A DNA stretch of 64,000 bases from Candidatus Acidulidesulfobacter diazotrophicus (GTDB lineage Bacteria > SZUA-79 > Acidulodesulfobacterales > Acidulodesulfobacteraceae), in NCBI GenBank assembly GCA_004195025.1, contig SGBB01000001.1, forward strand, positions 248,001 through 312,000, read 5' to 3'. This document shows, piece after piece, positions 6,425 through 64,000 of the stretch. Position 1 is the first letter of the stretch, and every line of letters begins with the position of its first letter. The notes beneath the pieces were generated by a model. The model was not told the DNA's origin, did not search any database, and saw only the letters and a list, made by a program, of their open reading frames with translations. Both the position numbers and the translations under genes were made by a program.

Positions 6425-7201
6425 ATGCTAAAAGATGAATTAAAAGCGTTTTATGCAATAAATATGCGGGAACTGCTAAAGTTTACAAGACAAAAATCCA
6501 GACTGATAACTGACCTGTCAAGGCCGGTAATATGGTTATTATTTGTAGGCTACGGCATCTCAACCTTAGTTAAACTCAAAAACGGTTCTTATATTGATTT
6601 TATATTTCCGGGAATTCTTGTGATGACCGTTCTTTTCAGGTCTATTTTTTCTGCAATTTCAATTATATGGGATCGTCAGTTTGGCGTTTTGAAAGAAATT
6701 TTGGTTTCTCCCGTGTCAAGAAAAACATTCGTTTTTGCAAAAATTACATCAGGAAGCATAATAAGCACGGCACAGGGTTTAATAATTTTAATATTTGCTC
6801 CTTTTTTAGGTATAAATTTAACAATAGGTATGTTTTTTCTAACACTGATAGCCCTTTTTTTTATTTCATCGTCTATAACCGCTTTCGGTATTTTAATAGC
6901 GTCAAGAATGACATCGTTTGAAGGATTTAACTCAATTATAAATCTGATAGTGCAGCCTATGTTTTTTGTAAGCGGAGCTCTATATCCGATAAAAAAATTT
7001 CCTCTTTTTTTAAAAATTTTAGCCTATATAAATCCTATAACATATTCGGTAGATTTGTTAAAATATATATTTTTTCATAATAAAGCAAAAAGTATTTTTG
7101 TGCCTGAAATTCCTGTTATAATAAGTATAGTATTTATTGCTCTTTTTTTAATAGTAATGGTGCTGTCTGCAAATTATTTTTTTGAAAAGGAAGAAAATTA
7201 A
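6425..7201 (+). CDS. ABC-2 type transporter permease
   Basis: A 258-residue inner-membrane protein with about six hydrophobic segments, in the family of DrrB/NodJ-like permeases that export drugs, polysaccharides or lipids. The conserved cytoplasmic segment WDRQFGVLKEILVSPVSR, which contacts the ATPase, and the late FVSGALYPI.KFP motif are clear. The protein ends within a few residues after the last membrane helix, as is normal. No ABC ATPase gene lies beside it, which is unusual because permease and ATPase are normally adjacent. The gap to the next gene is 6 bases, so those two are almost certainly translated from one message. Confidence 0.88.
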   Translation: MLKDELKAFYAINMRELLKFTRQKSRLITDLSRPVIWLLFVGYGISTLVKLKNGSYIDFIFPGILVMTVLFRSIFSAISIIWDRQFGVLKEILVSPVSRKTFVFAKITSGSIISTAQGLIILIFAPFLGINLTIGMFFLTLIALFFISSSITAFGILIASRMTSFEGFNSIINLIVQPMFFVSGALYPIKKFPLFLKILAYINPITYSVDLLKYIFFHNKAKSIFVPEIPVIISIVFIALFLIVMVLSANYFFEKEEN

Positions 7202-7207
7202 TTAGAT

Positions 7208-8953
7208 ATGAAAATCAATTTAAAGATATTTAAGAAATCTATAAGAAAAATAAAAATAACAAAACAGATAGATAAGAAAGGTTTTATTATTTTTCAAATA
7301 GACGGTCTTTCTAAAGAAGCTTTAGATAAAGCATTTAAACATAATCTGATGCCTTTTCTAAAAAAGATGACTTTAAAAAAAGGATATTTGCTAACCGATT
7401 ATCTTACGGGAGTTCCAAGCGATACCCCATTTTTTCAAGCAGGGCTGCTATACGGAGATAATAAAAATATTCCAGGATTCAGGTGGATTGAGAAAGATAC
7501 GGGAAATGAAATTATTTTTAAAAATCCTGAAAGCGCAGGGCATGTTGAAGCAATGCTTTCTAAAAATCATAAAGGTCTTCTTAAGGGCGGTTCAAGCTAT
7601 GTTAATTTGTTTTCAGGAGGAGCGTCTCGTTCAACATTTACATTATCGACATTTTCAGCGAGGTATCTTTTTAAAAAAAAAATAAGGAATTTTGATATTT
7701 TTATTATATTTATGTTTCATGTTTTTACTTTATTTAAAACTATTTTTTATGTGATGTTCGAATTTTTTTTTGAATTATATGAAAAAATATTAGATGTAAT
7801 CAAAAAAAGAGTCGTTAGACCGGAAGGTATATTTCCTTTTGCAAGAGTTATGTCCAATGTAATATTTAAAGAAATTGAGACATTCGGCGCAATTATGGAT
7901 ATTTCTAGAGGGGTGCCCTCTATATACATGGATTTTACAGGATACGACGAACTATCTCACCATAGAGGTCCATATTCAATTAGTGCGCTGAGAGCTCTAA
8001 AGGCAATAGACCGCAAAATAAAATATATTTTTAAAGAATTAGATAAATCAAGCAGAAAATATGATTTTTTTATTTTATCCGACCATGGACATACGCCGTC
8101 TGTCCCATTTGTCCATTTAAATAATAATGAAAAACTTGAAGCAGTCGTCAGTAAATTCATAACAAAAAATATTAACATTAATAATAATACAAAAAAAGAA
8201 TATACGGTGTATGAATTTGATACAGGCTACAATGCAGTTTTTAAACGGTTATTCTTATATATAGACGATTTGCTTAAGAAAAGCAGCTGCGATAAGATTT
8301 ATAATAAATTATTTAATAAATTTAAATATGATATTGAAACAAAAAACAATATTAACAATAAAAATGTTATAGATTGGAAAAATAAAAATGTAATATATAT
8401 AATGAATTCCGGACCTATGTCTAATATTTATTTTTCTGATAAAAAGACTAAAATGAATACTGAAGAAATTGAAGTTTTTTATCCGGGTTTAATCAAACGA
8501 TTATCCGATATTGAACATATCGGATTTATAATGGGTATAAATAAAAAAAACGATATAGTTATATCGTATAAAGGCTCGGAAGGTTTTGAACCTTTTTTTA
8601 AACACAATATAGCAGCGGACGAAAAACTATTAGATTCTTATCTAAAAAATATTTCTAATGATACCCTGAAAAATATTATAGAATATCTTAAGGTGTTTGA
8701 TAAAAAAAAAATAATAATAAATTCTATTAAAGATTTCTGCAGATTTAATAATTCAGGCGACTTAATAATTTTTGGAGCATACAATAAGGGATATATAGTT
8801 AATTTTGAAAATCAGCTTGGCGCTCATGGAGGCGCAGGAGGAGAACAAAACATTCCTTTTGCCGTATACCCGGAAACACTAAATTTTGATTTTGCAAGTG
8901 TGAATAATGCTTGTCAAATATATGATTTTATTTACAATAATTATGTTGTATAA
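7208..8953 (+). CDS. Alkaline phosphatase superfamily hydrolase (phosphodiesterase / nucleotide pyrophosphatase type)
   Basis: A 581-residue metal-dependent hydrolase. The expected metal and catalytic residues can be placed: Asp32 in FQIDG, the nucleophile Thr73 in GVPSDTPFFQAG, Asp247 and His251 in YDELSHHRG, Asp292-His293 in LSDHGH, and a late His540 in GAHGGAGG. A strongly hydrophobic stretch at about residues 165-190 may anchor or insert into the membrane; no cleavable signal peptide is seen. Related proteins hydrolyse phosphodiesters or pyrophosphates of nucleotides or lipids, but the substrate here is unknown. It starts 6 bases after the permease, so a lipid or polymer export-and-trim partnership is possible (inference). 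Confidence 0.85.
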   Translation: MKINLKIFKKSIRKIKITKQIDKKGFIIFQIDGLSKEALDKAFKHNLMPFLKKMTLKKGYLLTDYLTGVPSDTPFFQAGLLYGDNKNIPGFRWIEKDTGNEIIFKNPESAGHVEAMLSKNHKGLLKGGSSYVNLFSGGASRSTFTLSTFSARYLFKKKIRNFDIFIIFMFHVFTLFKTIFYVMFEFFFELYEKILDVIKKRVVRPEGIFPFARVMSNVIFKEIETFGAIMDISRGVPSIYMDFTGYDELSHHRGPYSISALRALKAIDRKIKYIFKELDKSSRKYDFFILSDHGHTPSVPFVHLNNNEKLEAVVSKFITKNININNNTKKEYTVYEFDTGYNAVFKRLFLYIDDLLKKSSCDKIYNKLFNKFKYDIETKNNINNKNVIDWKNKNVIYIMNSGPMSNIYFSDKKTKMNTEEIEVFYPGLIKRLSDIEHIGFIMGINKKNDIVISYKGSEGFEPFFKHNIAADEKLLDSYLKNISNDTLKNIIEYLKVFDKKKIIINSIKDFCRFNNSGDLIIFGAYNKGYIVNFENQLGAHGGAGGEQNIPFAVYPETLNFDFASVNNACQIYDFIYNNYVV

Positions 8954-58791: not shown

Positions 58792-59199
58792 TTATTTGAA
58801 CGGATTGACGATTTCTAATCTTTTTTCTATTTCCTGCCCTGAATGCAAATCTTCGGAAAAAAGTATATTACAGTTACTTTCCAATGCGGAAGCTATTACC
58901 ATGCTGTCCCAGTAAGAATAGCGATATTTTACCCTGATCGCCGAAGCGGAAAAAAATATATCCTTAGAAAAATTAATTATCGAATATCTTTTATAGCAGC
59001 TATCGACAAAATCCATAATATTTAACTCATTAAACCCGAGTTTTTTAAGCATGTTATTGCTGACTTCATTTATTACTTGCGTGCTGATGGTGAAATCATC
59101 AGCTAATAAAACATCTTTTGCAATTTCATGTTTTTTTAAATCTATATCCGAAAAGCCGTAGAGGAATATGTTGGAATCAAGAAAGATATTATCTTTCAT
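58792..59199 (-). CDS. PIN-domain ribonuclease toxin (VapC-like)
   Basis: A 135-residue PIN-domain RNase. The acidic metal site is visible: Asp8 in FLDSNIFLY, the Glu of QVINEVSNN, and the Asp residues of YWDSMVIASAL and LFSEDLHSG. Such toxins cleave tRNA or rRNA and are held in check by the adjacent antitoxin. The start overlaps the antitoxin gene by 11 bases. It lies inside the att-bracketed islet. Confidence 0.9.
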   Translation of the reverse strand: MKDNIFLDSNIFLYGFSDIDLKKHEIAKDVLLADDFTISTQVINEVSNNMLKKLGFNELNIMDFVDSCYKRYSIINFSKDIFFSASAIRVKYRYSYWDSMVIASALESNCNILFSEDLHSGQEIEKRLEIVNPFK

Positions 59200-60262: not shown

Positions 60263-60508
60263 ATGAAACACAGGCACATAAATGTAAATATTAATAAAAG
60301 TCTACCACTTGAAGCGATAGACGACATTGTCTCAAGGGGCGATATGCCGGAATGGTTGGAGTTAAGGGACTACGCTTTAAGCCATCCGGAAGCGTTAAAC
60401 GATATAATAAAAATTTGCAAACATTATATAGCAGATCCCTACGAACAGAAATATTATTTCTGGTATAATTTTGCTCTATATTTAATAAATGCCGGAGGAA
60501 CCCAATGA
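60263..60508 (+). CDS. Small protein coupled to a nucleotidyltransferase, unknown
   Basis: An 81-residue protein (NINKSLPLEAIDDIVSRGDM, then PEWLELRDYALSHPEAL and DPYEQKYYFWYNFALYLI). No domain is recognised; it is helix-rich and acidic/aromatic toward the end. Its stop overlaps the ATG of the nucleotidyltransferase gene (ATGA), so the two are translationally coupled. The size and order fit an antitoxin or partner, but that is inference. Confidence 0.6.
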   Translation: MKHRHINVNINKSLPLEAIDDIVSRGDMPEWLELRDYALSHPEALNDIIKICKHYIADPYEQKYYFWYNFALYLINAGGTQ

Positions 60509-61272
60509 ACGACAAGGAAGAATGGGAGAGCGTTGTTTCGAATATAGCGAGGATTAACGACATCCTGCCCGATGCCGTCATAGTAGGAGGAACAGCATCG
60601 GCTTTATATTCCGAACATAGAACGTCTAACGATACCGATTTTGTAGTTAAGGATTTAAAGGAAAGATTCAACGATATCCTTTCGACGCTTGAAGCGGTTT
60701 CTGGATGGAAGACTTCAAGGATAAAACCGCCGGTTTTAATTCTTGGAAATTTAAACGGTATCGAAACGGGTATAAGGCAGCTTATAAGAACCAAACCGTT
60801 AGAAACCACGGAAATGGATTATAAAGGCCAAAAATTAACAGTGCCTACCTCTGCCGAAATTTTAAGGATTAAAGGTTTTTTAATACTTGCCAGGAATGCG
60901 ACGCGCGATTACATTGATTTCGTCGCGCTGGCCAACCATCTGGGCGACGGTAAAACCAATGAGTCCTTAAAAAGCTTTGACGAGCTTTATCCGCAGGAAA
61001 ATAAAGCATCGGCCTTAAGGCAACTGGTGGTACAATTAACGAAACCATTACCGTATGATTTAAAGGAAACCGATTTAACCAAATATAAAAATCTCGACAA
61101 AAAGTGGCAGGATTGGCGTAACGTGGAAGAGTATTCCAAAAAGGTAGCGATTAATATTTTTACGGGATACAGGAATGAATTGGAGCCTAAACCCGAAACT
61201 CCTAAACCCGACGCTTTCTCGGAATGGCTCAATGAAAAAGAGCAGAATAAAAAGAAAGGGCCGAAGCTGTAA
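60505..61272 (+). CDS. Nucleotidyltransferase-fold protein (AbiEii/MenT-like)
   Basis: A 255-residue protein with a polymerase-beta-type nucleotidyltransferase core. The VIVGGTASALYSEHRTSNDT segment holds the Gly-Gly pair (28-29) and the first acidic residue of the metal site; the TDF that follows supplies the second. The pattern matches AbiEii toxins of type IV systems. The C-terminal half is helical and ends in a charged Pro/Lys tail. A GGAGG site precedes the ATG. The DNA is visibly less AT-rich than the surroundings, suggesting transfer. Acting as a toxin or abortive-infection factor is plausible but unproven. Confidence 0.7.
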   Translation: MNDKEEWESVVSNIARINDILPDAVIVGGTASALYSEHRTSNDTDFVVKDLKERFNDILSTLEAVSGWKTSRIKPPVLILGNLNGIETGIRQLIRTKPLETTEMDYKGQKLTVPTSAEILRIKGFLILARNATRDYIDFVALANHLGDGKTNESLKSFDELYPQENKASALRQLVVQLTKPLPYDLKETDLTKYKNLDKKWQDWRNVEEYSKKVAINIFTGYRNELEPKPETPKPDAFSEWLNEKEQNKKKGPKL

Positions 61273-61903: not shown

Positions 61904-63850
61904 TTAAATATTAAGAAGTTTTTTAATCTGTTCAAAATCGCTATTCTTTGCTTCCGTAAATGCAGAATATCCTTTGTCAATAGATTGGAGTATGTTTTTG
62001 TCTTTAATATTTAGAAGAATATCTTTCATTTTTAATTTTAAATCCTCATCAATGCTGTTGCCGGCGCAAATTGGGAATTGCGGTATGGGATCCGAGTAAG
62101 CTATAATTTTTAAAGAATTCTTGAAATCTTCCGCAGCGGAATCCATCAATGCCCCGGCGTCAAATTCTCCTGATATGACGGCGTTTGCCACATTATCATG
62201 AGAACCGAGGTAATCATAAGCGGCAAGAGATATAAGTTCAATCCCTGCTGCTTTCAGCATTGCTTTTGGAATAAGCGAAGAGCCCGTTGACATTTTAGAA
62301 CCGAATGCTATTTTTTTTGATTTTAAATCTTGAATAGAACTTATTTTAGAATTTATCGGCGCAACAAAAACGCTTTTATAAGTGGGAGAGCCATTTTTGA
62401 TTGCATAGACAAGAGGTTCAATTTTATATTTTTTACTTGCTTCTAAATAGGTAGAGGGCGTCATGTAAGCAAAAGACACTTTATTAGTTCCTATCTCTTC
62501 AATTGAATCTTCATATGTAACTGCAACCAAATTACTGTAATGTAAATTTAAAGATTTATTTAAATAATTTATTAGCGGTTCAAATTTCTTTTTCATAATT
62601 ATTGCGCTTTCTAATGGAACTATTCCAAAAAGGTCTAATTTTAAGGAGCATAGTTCAATTTTTAATGAATTAGAAGACTTAGCTAACGATGAACTTATTA
62701 TTTTTGATTTTTTCGCCGCTTCGGTTGTATTGGCAGATACCTTTTGAACGACGGCAAGATTTTTTTCTACCTCGGCGACGGCAATTTCTAACTGTTCAGC
62801 TGAAGAATATATTATGTCTATGCTATTTTTTTCTTCGCTCGCAGCTTTCATAATATTGCTAAATAATTCCTCCGCCTGAACAGATTCTGAACTTATTTTT
62901 TTAACATTTTCTATTGCGTCTTTAATAGCCTGAACAGTTTTTGAAGTTTCCTGAAGCAGGCTTTCTATTATTTTTCTTGTATCGGAAGTTGATTTGCTTG
63001 TTCTTTCAGCCAATTTTTTAACTTCATCCGCTACAACGGCAAAACCTCTGCCCTGCTCTCCAGCCCGCGCAGCTTCTATAGCTGCATTTAACGCTAAGAG
63101 ATTGGTCTGGTCCGCTATATCGCTTATTAATGAAATAACGTCGCCTATTTCTTTAGATCTTTTATCAAGTTCGGACATAGTAGTATTTAAATTTTCTATG
63201 GAATTAGATACTGTTTTTATATCGTCTATAATATTTTCTATCATTAAATTTCCTTGAGTAGCTCTTTCTAGAGAAGTCTTAGAAGATTTCTGAGAATCTT
63301 TGGCGCTTTTTGTCATTTCTTTATGGGACATACTAATTTCGTCAATTGCGCTGGAAATTGAAGCCACCTGTACCGACAACGATTCATTTTCCCTATATAT
63401 TTTTTCCATAGAACCGCTTTCAATATTGGCATCAACGGCAACAATATTTGTTGAATCCAACGCTTTTTGAAATGTATCGTTTAAGTAATCAAATAAATCG
63501 TTAATTTTACTGTCTATATTGTATAAATCTATTGATGAAGGGAGACGTTTTCTCAGGTCTTTGTCAATAGTCAAAAAATCTGTCAAAAAGTTATTAATTT
63601 TGTTTGCCTTTGCTTTAACTATGACGTTATTAATAAAAATGCCTGCATAGTAAATAATAGCAACAATAATAACGGCAAATGATAATATATAATTTTTCTG
63701 GATAAACGAAAAAATAAGAATAAATAAAGCTATAATTGCGAATATAATTATTAAAGCCGTATTTATAATATTGATATTTAAAATATTATTTCTATTGATG
63801 TTACCATTTTTAGTTATATTCCTGTTTTTCATATTTCTCACCGCCTTCAT
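61904..63850 (-). CDS. Chemoreceptor (MCP) fused to a C-terminal PhnD-like binding domain
   Basis: A 648-residue protein. Two adjacent membrane helices (about 29-50 and 54-76) leave almost no periplasmic part, so both ends should face the cytoplasm. The MCP signalling domain follows, with the hairpin tip [20 protein letters not shown] and [20 protein letters not shown]. From about residue 395 comes a domain like PhnD phosphonate/phosphite binding proteins ([50 protein letters not shown]). Normally PhnD is exported and sensor domains precede the MCP part. The predicted cytoplasmic placement of the binding domain is the oddity. ATG 63832 with a nearby GGTGA is an alternative start. Confidence 0.88.
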
Positions 63851-63871: not shown

Positions 63872-64000
63872 TTATAATAAATGATAATTTAAAAAAGATT
63901 TATAATTATTAGAAGCTATAATTGCCATAGCGGCAGAATACAGTCTTGCTTTTGGCGGATCCGATCTTGAAGTTAAGATAACAGGGACGGCAGCACCTAC
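63872..64000 (-). CDS. Phosphate acetyl/butyryltransferase-like protein, C-terminal end
   Basis: The last 42 codons of a gene that enters from the right edge. VGAAVPVILTSRSDPPKARL then YSAAMAIIAS matches the C-terminus of the Pta/Ptb family, which transfers acyl groups between CoA and phosphate. The stop is at 63872-63874 (minus strand), 22 bases before the chemoreceptor start, so the two may be co-transcribed. The precise substrate cannot be told from this fragment. Confidence 0.7.
   Translation of the reverse strand, partial: VGAAVPVILTSRSDPPKARLYSAAMAIIASNNYKSFLNYHLL

Follow-up and report, generated by a model that had tools for sequence, protein, structure and literature searches.

A chemoreceptor with a C-terminal PhnD/PtxB-like domain, apparently cytoplasmic, in Candidatus Acidulidesulfobacter diazotrophicus and relatives

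What does a chemoreceptor sense, and on which side of the membrane, when the domain that looks like its sensor is found at the C-terminus, behind the signalling core? The question is raised by a gene on the minus strand close to the end of the window, by which we mean the whole stretch of 64,000 nucleotides that was analysed. The features of this gene are as follows, with residues numbered from position 63850.

61904..63832, minus strand: MCP-PhnD receptor gene from its likely start, Met7 (642 amino acids)
61904..63850, minus strand: longest open reading frame of the MCP-PhnD receptor, start at 63850 (648 amino acids)
63620..63766, minus strand: predicted tight membrane hairpin, about residues 29-77, from hydropathy and K/R counts; AlphaFold helices 20-50 and 54-95
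62645..63430, minus strand: helical hairpin of the MCP signalling core, residues 141-402 (PF00015 at 190-371), from the profile match and AlphaFold model
61907..62638, minus strand: C-terminal PhnD/PtxB-like domain, residues 405-648 (PF12974 at 408-639), from profile, sequence and fold searches
62612..62614, minus strand: Leu413, equivalent of the Te_PtxB cap residue Asp22 in a hand-read alignment, with roles from the accessible part of PMC5700983
62075..62077, minus strand: Phe592, equivalent of the Te_PtxB cap residue Tyr208, in the motif PIPQFP, from the same alignment and source

The reading frame is open throughout its 648 codons, and its parts run from the membrane hairpin to the MCP core to the PhnD-like domain. 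The core matches PF00015 at residues 190-371 (E 3.3e-39, 134.9 bits against a cut-off of 34.6) and carries the conserved MCP hairpin tip. The C-terminal part matches PF12974 (Phosphonate-bd) at residues 408-639 (E 6.3e-57, 193.2 bits against a cut-off of 27), with the profile covered from end to end (1-242 of 242), and it also matches TIGR01098 (146.2 bits, cut-off 112.05); for PhnD proper, the equivalog TIGR03431, the score of 123.4 bits lies below the cut-off of 261.1. Pfam finds no HAMP domain in this receptor. The consensus pattern for MCP methylation sites is absent in its strict form; a relaxed form matches three times, and of these the match at the hairpin tip is not meaningful. The AlphaFold model of the whole receptor (mean pLDDT 67.1, pTM 0.39) has helices at 20-50 and 54-95, a long helical hairpin at 141-266/270-402 and an alpha/beta domain from about residue 413, in which the pLDDT per ten-residue block is mostly 74-94, with one block at 58 and one at 68. 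An earlier note, made from the letters alone, had described two tightly spaced helices, an MCP core and a full-length PhnD-like C-terminus, had named PF12974 and PF00015 as the domains to search for and had proposed structure prediction. Profiles, hydropathy and model agree with that architecture: both domains score above their curated cut-offs, and membrane hairpin, signalling hairpin and C-terminal alpha/beta domain are all present in the model.

The true start of the gene is probably Met7 at position 63832, since this residue is invariant among 16 aligned orthologues, most of the aligned orthologues start there, and a ribosome-site-like sequence stands directly before it both here and in a more distant member of the genus. 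Promoter-like sites (56, shuffled mean 46.0) and terminator-like sites (7, shuffled mean 3.1) upstream of the gene are not informative.

Two hydrophobic stretches lie near the N-terminus (about residues 21-50 and 53-80) with a short link between them, and no membrane segment is flagged after residue 85, where the highest 19-residue window scores 1.54 (residue 400) against a threshold of 1.6. That window is not far under the threshold, but it holds charged residues and belongs to the conserved start of the binding domain. The first 28 residues contain six K/R and no D/E (four K/R if the start is Met7), residues 78-100 contain five K/R and three D/E, and the hairpin link has a single K, a pattern that fits both ends inside. 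In the other scanned receptors the stretch from core motif to binding domain is free of flagged windows, with one exception in L163 that belongs to the signalling helix and is amphipathic, with acidic residues in it. We infer that the C-terminal binding domain is cytoplasmic, because the signalling core must reach CheA inside the cell and no later membrane segment is found. A cytoplasmic C-terminal sensor, as the note had supposed, is therefore well supported by anatomy, conservation and predicted topology; such a sensor may read an intracellular anion or metabolite, as the note had also proposed. PF12974 proteins are usually exported, and the family's own description reads "periplasmic", which would favour a C-terminus outside the membrane and an ordinary periplasmic phosphonate sensor; the same two points, the meeting of core and CheA and the lack of a membrane segment after the core, make this very improbable.

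Is the fusion itself real? A search of 146 genomes with the whole protein gives uninterrupted long matches in all seven genomes of the genus (the six relatives at 96-83% identity) and the MCP-PhnD fusion in 11 further genomes of the family, which makes 18 of 30 family genomes in all. The receptor gene of G003 runs off its contig, the copy in G023 is split over two contigs, and G027 holds a further C-terminal receptor fragment. Scanning titled genome contigs with the PhnD part gives 24 loci, namely 17 of the family, five of Nitrospirae and two of Gammaproteobacteria, one of the latter from Acidiferrobacteraceae. The 17 family loci, isolate SZUA-79 among them, are bacteria of the window's family or fragments and mostly overlap with the 146-genome search. 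All seven loci from Nitrospirae and Gammaproteobacteria show the same order of parts in 630-655 codons, and Pfam, applied to two of the seven, adds a HAMP domain in the Nitrospirae receptor. The survey of other genomes that the note had suggested thus finds the architecture in the family, in Nitrospirota and in Gammaproteobacteria. The probability that two separate genes were artificially joined, through a mistake in sequencing or assembly, is negligible. The note had named such a joining as its refuting case, but 17 more genomes of the family and members of two other phyla have the same fusion with no stop inside it, which refutes the artefact, and we found no point in its favour.

In a sample of 386 genomes, two from outside the family (G120 and G314) carry a strongly matching domain in a long receptor frame, and G287 encodes an MCP in which no membrane segment is flagged and whose C-terminal domain is more distantly related. 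No MCP core was seen by eye in 16 further long-frame loci of this sample, which are tandem-domain proteins or open reading frames extended past a transporter-type protein. Long receptor frames, mostly of 930-1000 codons, are common in Nitrospirota; the long receptor L118, from G314, carries at its N-terminus a predicted sensor flanked by two membrane segments, followed by HAMP, the core and a C-terminal PF12974 domain. In the plasmid collection no record covers 80% of the receptor protein.

The tree of the binding domain was built from 86 domains (54 receptor-borne, L127 and 31 others), omitting the duplicates L142, L108, L118 and L136-L138 as well as L106, identical rows and all those shorter than 180 residues. 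Two groups are supported, one (100/95) made up of short receptors from three phyla and the other (99/98) of the long receptors together with G120 and G314. The long-branch rows L120 and L128 fall between the two groups with weak support, so that a single origin of the fusion, with both groups in one clade, is not settled by the tree. L127, an MCP-PhnD fusion without a flagged membrane segment, sits elsewhere, in a place that is unsure because it is joined to another long branch.

Other forms of the domain were seen by eye in the same searches. Two tandem PF12974-type domains followed by a C-terminal C-G-x-G-C-H motif occur in L131 (904-2628), L140 and L141, the last two with a sensor-kinase-looking frame beside the tandem protein. 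L121 and L123-L126 have a PstS-like first half and a PF12974-type second half with CxxCH. The Nitrospirae genomes G386 and G387, from which L074 and L078 come, have eight and five PF12974-type matches at E 1e-20, receptor-borne and tandem forms included.

To which binding proteins is the C-terminal domain related, and is its pocket kept? The nearest solved sequences by phmmer are PtxB (5o2j, E 2e-32; 5jvb, E 4e-27), and ArrX scores lower (E 4.7e-10). Foldseek is likewise led by PtxB chains (5o2k, E 1.6e-19), followed by ArrX, HtxB, PhnD and AioX, the last of which is absent from the phmmer result list. In a hand-read alignment, five of the six oxygen-contact residues of Te_PtxB are kept (Y55, Y100, S130, T131 and H160) and S132 is replaced by Gly; these positions are invariant among 16 family orthologues. 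The PtxB cap pair Tyr208/Asp22 is not kept, and Phe592 and Leu413 stand in its place. Taken together, cap and contact positions do not vary within the family, and outside it they are mostly kept as well. In the accessible part of PMC5700983, the change Y208F in Te_PtxB is reported to lower phosphite affinity about 1000-fold and essentially to abolish phosphate binding. With this result and the greasy Leu/Phe cap, phosphite is not expected as the natural ligand, and phosphate binding by a Phe-capped site is not assured; a natural Leu/Phe pair, however, need not behave like the single Y208F mutant.

Of 55 distinct receptor-borne domains that could be scored, 53 have the Leu/Phe pair, a count that is inflated by the relatedness of the receptors and includes L162, whose receptor core is unconfirmed, among the 53. 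By group, it is present in the family (17/17 scorable, one truncated row being unscorable), the short Nitrospirota receptors (5/5), the long Nitrospirota receptors (27/28), Gammaproteobacteria (2/2) and G120 with G314 (2/2), and it is missing in L127 (0/1); the exceptions are L169 (Ile/Phe) and L127 (Phe/Asp). Duplicates were dropped before counting (L142, identical to L076, and L108, L118 and L136-L138). Among 34 other PF12974-type domains, several of which are tandem domains of one protein, nine have a gap at a cap position and one of the 25 scorable has the pair. The long receptor forms differ at two oxygen-contact positions, mostly with Phe and His for Y55 and Y100, so their ligand may be a different one.

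The genes upstream of the receptor suggest what this pocket might meet.

63872..64000, minus strand: 3' end (129 nt in the window) of the upstream phosphotransacylase gene, PF01515 (PTA_PTB)
L009 2373-3311, 3567-5066 and 5276-5995: phosphotransacylase, acetate kinase (PF00871) and PhoU-fold gene, the last two outside the window

The upstream gene, described in the note as phosphate acyltransferase-like, is borne out as a PTA_PTB protein (PF01515, E 2.5e-41). At all seven loci of the genus we find one operon-like order in a single orientation: PhoU-fold protein, acetate kinase, phosphotransacylase, receptor. The receptor frame follows after 21 nt in two of these genomes and after 277-543 nt in the other five, and the short gap makes a single transcript likely in those two genomes only. 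In genus g4, both receptor-bearing loci have a homologue of the PhoU-fold protein 102 and 136 nt upstream, without the two enzymes, and outside the genus the stretches read show no receptor beside acetate kinase and phosphotransacylase. The 239-residue neighbour (L009 5276-5995) has a PhoU fold according to its predicted structure (pLDDT 81.6, pTM 0.84): of its six best structural rows (Z 20.6-21.7) five are titled PhoU or PhoU-like and the sixth, 1sum, "hypothetical protein", further PhoU-like rows follow at Z 16.2-16.5, and the best row of another type reaches 14.2. Foldseek also places PhoU first, with a weak best E of 0.003. In Pfam the protein has no hit at E 0.1, and one homologue reaches 15.9 bits, below the PhoU (PF01895) cut-off of 23.5.

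The acetate kinase gene (L009 3567-5066) encodes an asparagine- and lysine-rich low-complexity insert, its homologues in the genus having 499-542 residues. Just beyond the window lie a tRNA-Arg(CCG) (L009 6447-6523) and then a tyrosine recombinase gene (6734-7762), a possible integration site. In the other direction, the receptor is followed by a nucleotidyltransferase-toxin-like gene, a PIN gene and then a type IV pilus/type II secretion-like cluster at about 50-57 kb; the PIN-domain gene between receptor and cluster is at 58792-59199 of the window. An AbiEii-like nucleotidyltransferase adjoins the receptor at four of 18 loci in two genera (window 60505-61272; L042 5167-5877; L051 2819-3544; L053 5847-6524). 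Flagellar and pilus transcripts are reported for the order in the accessible part of PMC6776010. The genome has eight PF00015 places, one of them broken, and CheW-family matches at four places, one within a 764-codon frame that is CheA-like by its length only. There is no second PF12974 place in the genome (98% complete), and so no transporter of the PF12974 kind is found that could share the ligand of the receptor; instead of the neighbouring permease and ATPase genes of an exported ABC binding protein, the upstream genes are those for PTA_PTB, acetate kinase and the PhoU-fold protein.

Inorganic phosphate or a small acyl phosphate is the most likely class of ligand, although we hold even this tentatively, at clearly less than an even chance. 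The genus neighbours (PhoU-fold protein, acetate kinase and phosphotransacylase) point to phosphate or acyl phosphate, but in one genus. The suggestion made from the letters, that acyl-phosphate or phosphate status is the signal, gains from the PhoU-fold gene that precedes acetate kinase and phosphotransacylase, and it loses from the fact that the enzymes are not adjacent outside the genus and that three receptor-bearing genomes (G012, G015 and G016, one of them 78% complete) have no PTA_PTB match at E 1e-10. Across the 30 family genomes, several of which are incomplete so that absences are soft, PTA_PTB is present in 15 of 18 genomes with the receptor and seven of 12 without (exact test, P = 0.21), and the PhoU-fold family in 17 of 18 and nine of 12 (P = 0.27); links of the receptor to acyl phosphate and to the PhoU fold by co-occurrence are unsupported.

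Sulfite is close in shape to phosphite, and a sulfur oxyanion made inside the cell, sulfite foremost, could also close the clamshell. In 198 Nitrospirota genomes, dsrA (E 1e-60; three of the 87 matches under the family's cut-off) is present in 38 of the 40 genomes scored as receptor-bearing and in 49 of the 158 others, and 23 of the 30 genomes of the window's family have it. The 40 comprise genomes whose best match scored 229 bits or more and lay in a frame of 640 codons or longer, together with G472, whose receptor frame is broken by a run of N and whose core is unconfirmed; frames of about 530-600 codons were excluded (those read, L131, L140 and L141, are tandem-domain proteins with an N-terminal hydrophobic stretch), as were G515 and G573, which have long frames with lower scores and both have dsrA. 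However, the Nitrospirota association may reflect shared ancestry alone, and 30 of the 40 genomes were scanned as loci. In the window's own family the association fails (12 of 18 with the receptor, 11 of 12 without; exact test, P = 0.19), and five of the seven genus genomes have the receptor without a dsrA match. We therefore keep sulfite as a rival only, and an unlikely one.

Waters of acid mine drainage are often arsenic-rich. Such an origin of the order is in print (PMC6776010, accessible part), ArrX and AioX are among the fold matches, and seven of the eight genus g6 loci have an ArsB-family pump gene at a distance of 0.3-6.1 kb from the receptor, which would suit a domain that senses cytoplasmic arsenate or arsenite as its periplasmic cousins do. 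Yet neither the side, the orientation nor the distance of the pump gene is constant, no ArsB-family homologue occurs among the reading frames of the other 11 loci within the fetched stretches, and PtxB is much closer in sequence than ArrX (E-values above); we consider an arsenic ligand improbable. It is also doubtful that the domain has ceased to read a small ligand and serves instead to dock another protein (the PhoU-fold neighbour would be a candidate) or to hold the receptor at a certain place in the cell. The cytoplasmic receptor TlpD is reported to need its C-terminus for its polar place (PMC13001251), and a PhoU-fold gene is near the receptor in two genera, but the constancy of the pocket positions, complete in the family and largely preserved outside it, fits a working pocket better than a docking platform.

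The explanation that we favour, and hold to be reasonably probable, is a membrane-anchored chemoreceptor that senses the cell interior with a C-terminal PhnD/PtxB-like clamshell. The short membrane hairpin would be an anchor, with no periplasmic domain for binding, and the signalling hairpin would feed a CheA/CheW array. The clamshell would close on a small phosphate-type oxyanion in the cytoplasm, and the signal would pass from it through the joining helix to the base of the signalling hairpin, a path that includes residues 372-415, where the pLDDT of the model is below 50. A more specific proposal, and a rather unlikely one, is that the receptor measures a cytoplasmic acyl phosphate (acetyl or butyryl), with the phosphate in the oxygen site and the acyl group against the Leu/Phe cap. 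If so, the receptor would be produced in this genus alongside a PhoU-fold partner and the two enzymes, kinase and transacylase, on which the amount of its ligand depends. The cell would then be guided by its own phosphate status and carbon overflow, and the Nitrospirota and Gammaproteobacteria homologues that share this cap would form a widespread class of inward-looking receptors based on the fold of a phosphite-binding protein. Were the ligand either phosphate or an acyl phosphate, the receptor would be a testable example of taxis by internal metabolic state and not by an outside attractant.

How does this receptor compare with known systems? ArrX and AioX share the fold of its C-terminal domain, ArrX being less similar than PtxB, but they are separate periplasmic proteins, and those of the AioX type feed signalling. 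PtxB (5jvb, 5o2j; PMC5700983, accessible part), the phosphite-binding protein of ABC transporters, shares the fold, the full domain length and the contacts Y55, Y100, S130, T131 and H160; the receptor differs from it in having Phe592 and Leu413 for Tyr208 and Asp22 and Gly for S132, in lacking a visible signal peptide and a detected transporter, and in being fused behind an MCP core, apparently on the cytoplasmic side. This pocket cap, kept across phyla, is unlike that of the characterised phosphite and phosphonate binders. Among chemoreceptors tied to phosphate, CtpH and CtpL of Pseudomonas aeruginosa are the closest known comparison (PMC4926252, accessible part): CtpH binds phosphate with its own ligand domain, and CtpL works through the phosphate-binding PstS, which is a separate periplasmic protein that docks on it.

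That MCP sensor domains normally precede the signalling part, as the note had stated, holds as the norm, but a minority class with the ligand domain at the C-terminus has been described. The available text of PMC7390727 describes a poorly characterised chemoreceptor subfamily of this kind, with at least 17 Pfam domain types, CZB being the commonest, so the kind of receptor is already known. Our receptor shares with these MCPs a sensor module behind the signalling core, with no predicted membrane segment between the two, which is the sequence criterion for the class. An open-access-weighted literature search listed no paper devoted, by its title or the opening of its abstract, to an MCP with a C-terminal PF12974 domain, which may be among those 17 types. 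The CZB-type members carry a small zinc-binding domain, whereas the module here has a two-lobed binding-protein fold. We thus regard the receptor as a real, conserved and apparently uncharacterised variant within the known C-terminal-ligand-domain MCPs, and it would show plainly how a binding-protein fold of two lobes can be relocated to the cytoplasm and serve a chemoreceptor as its direct sensor.
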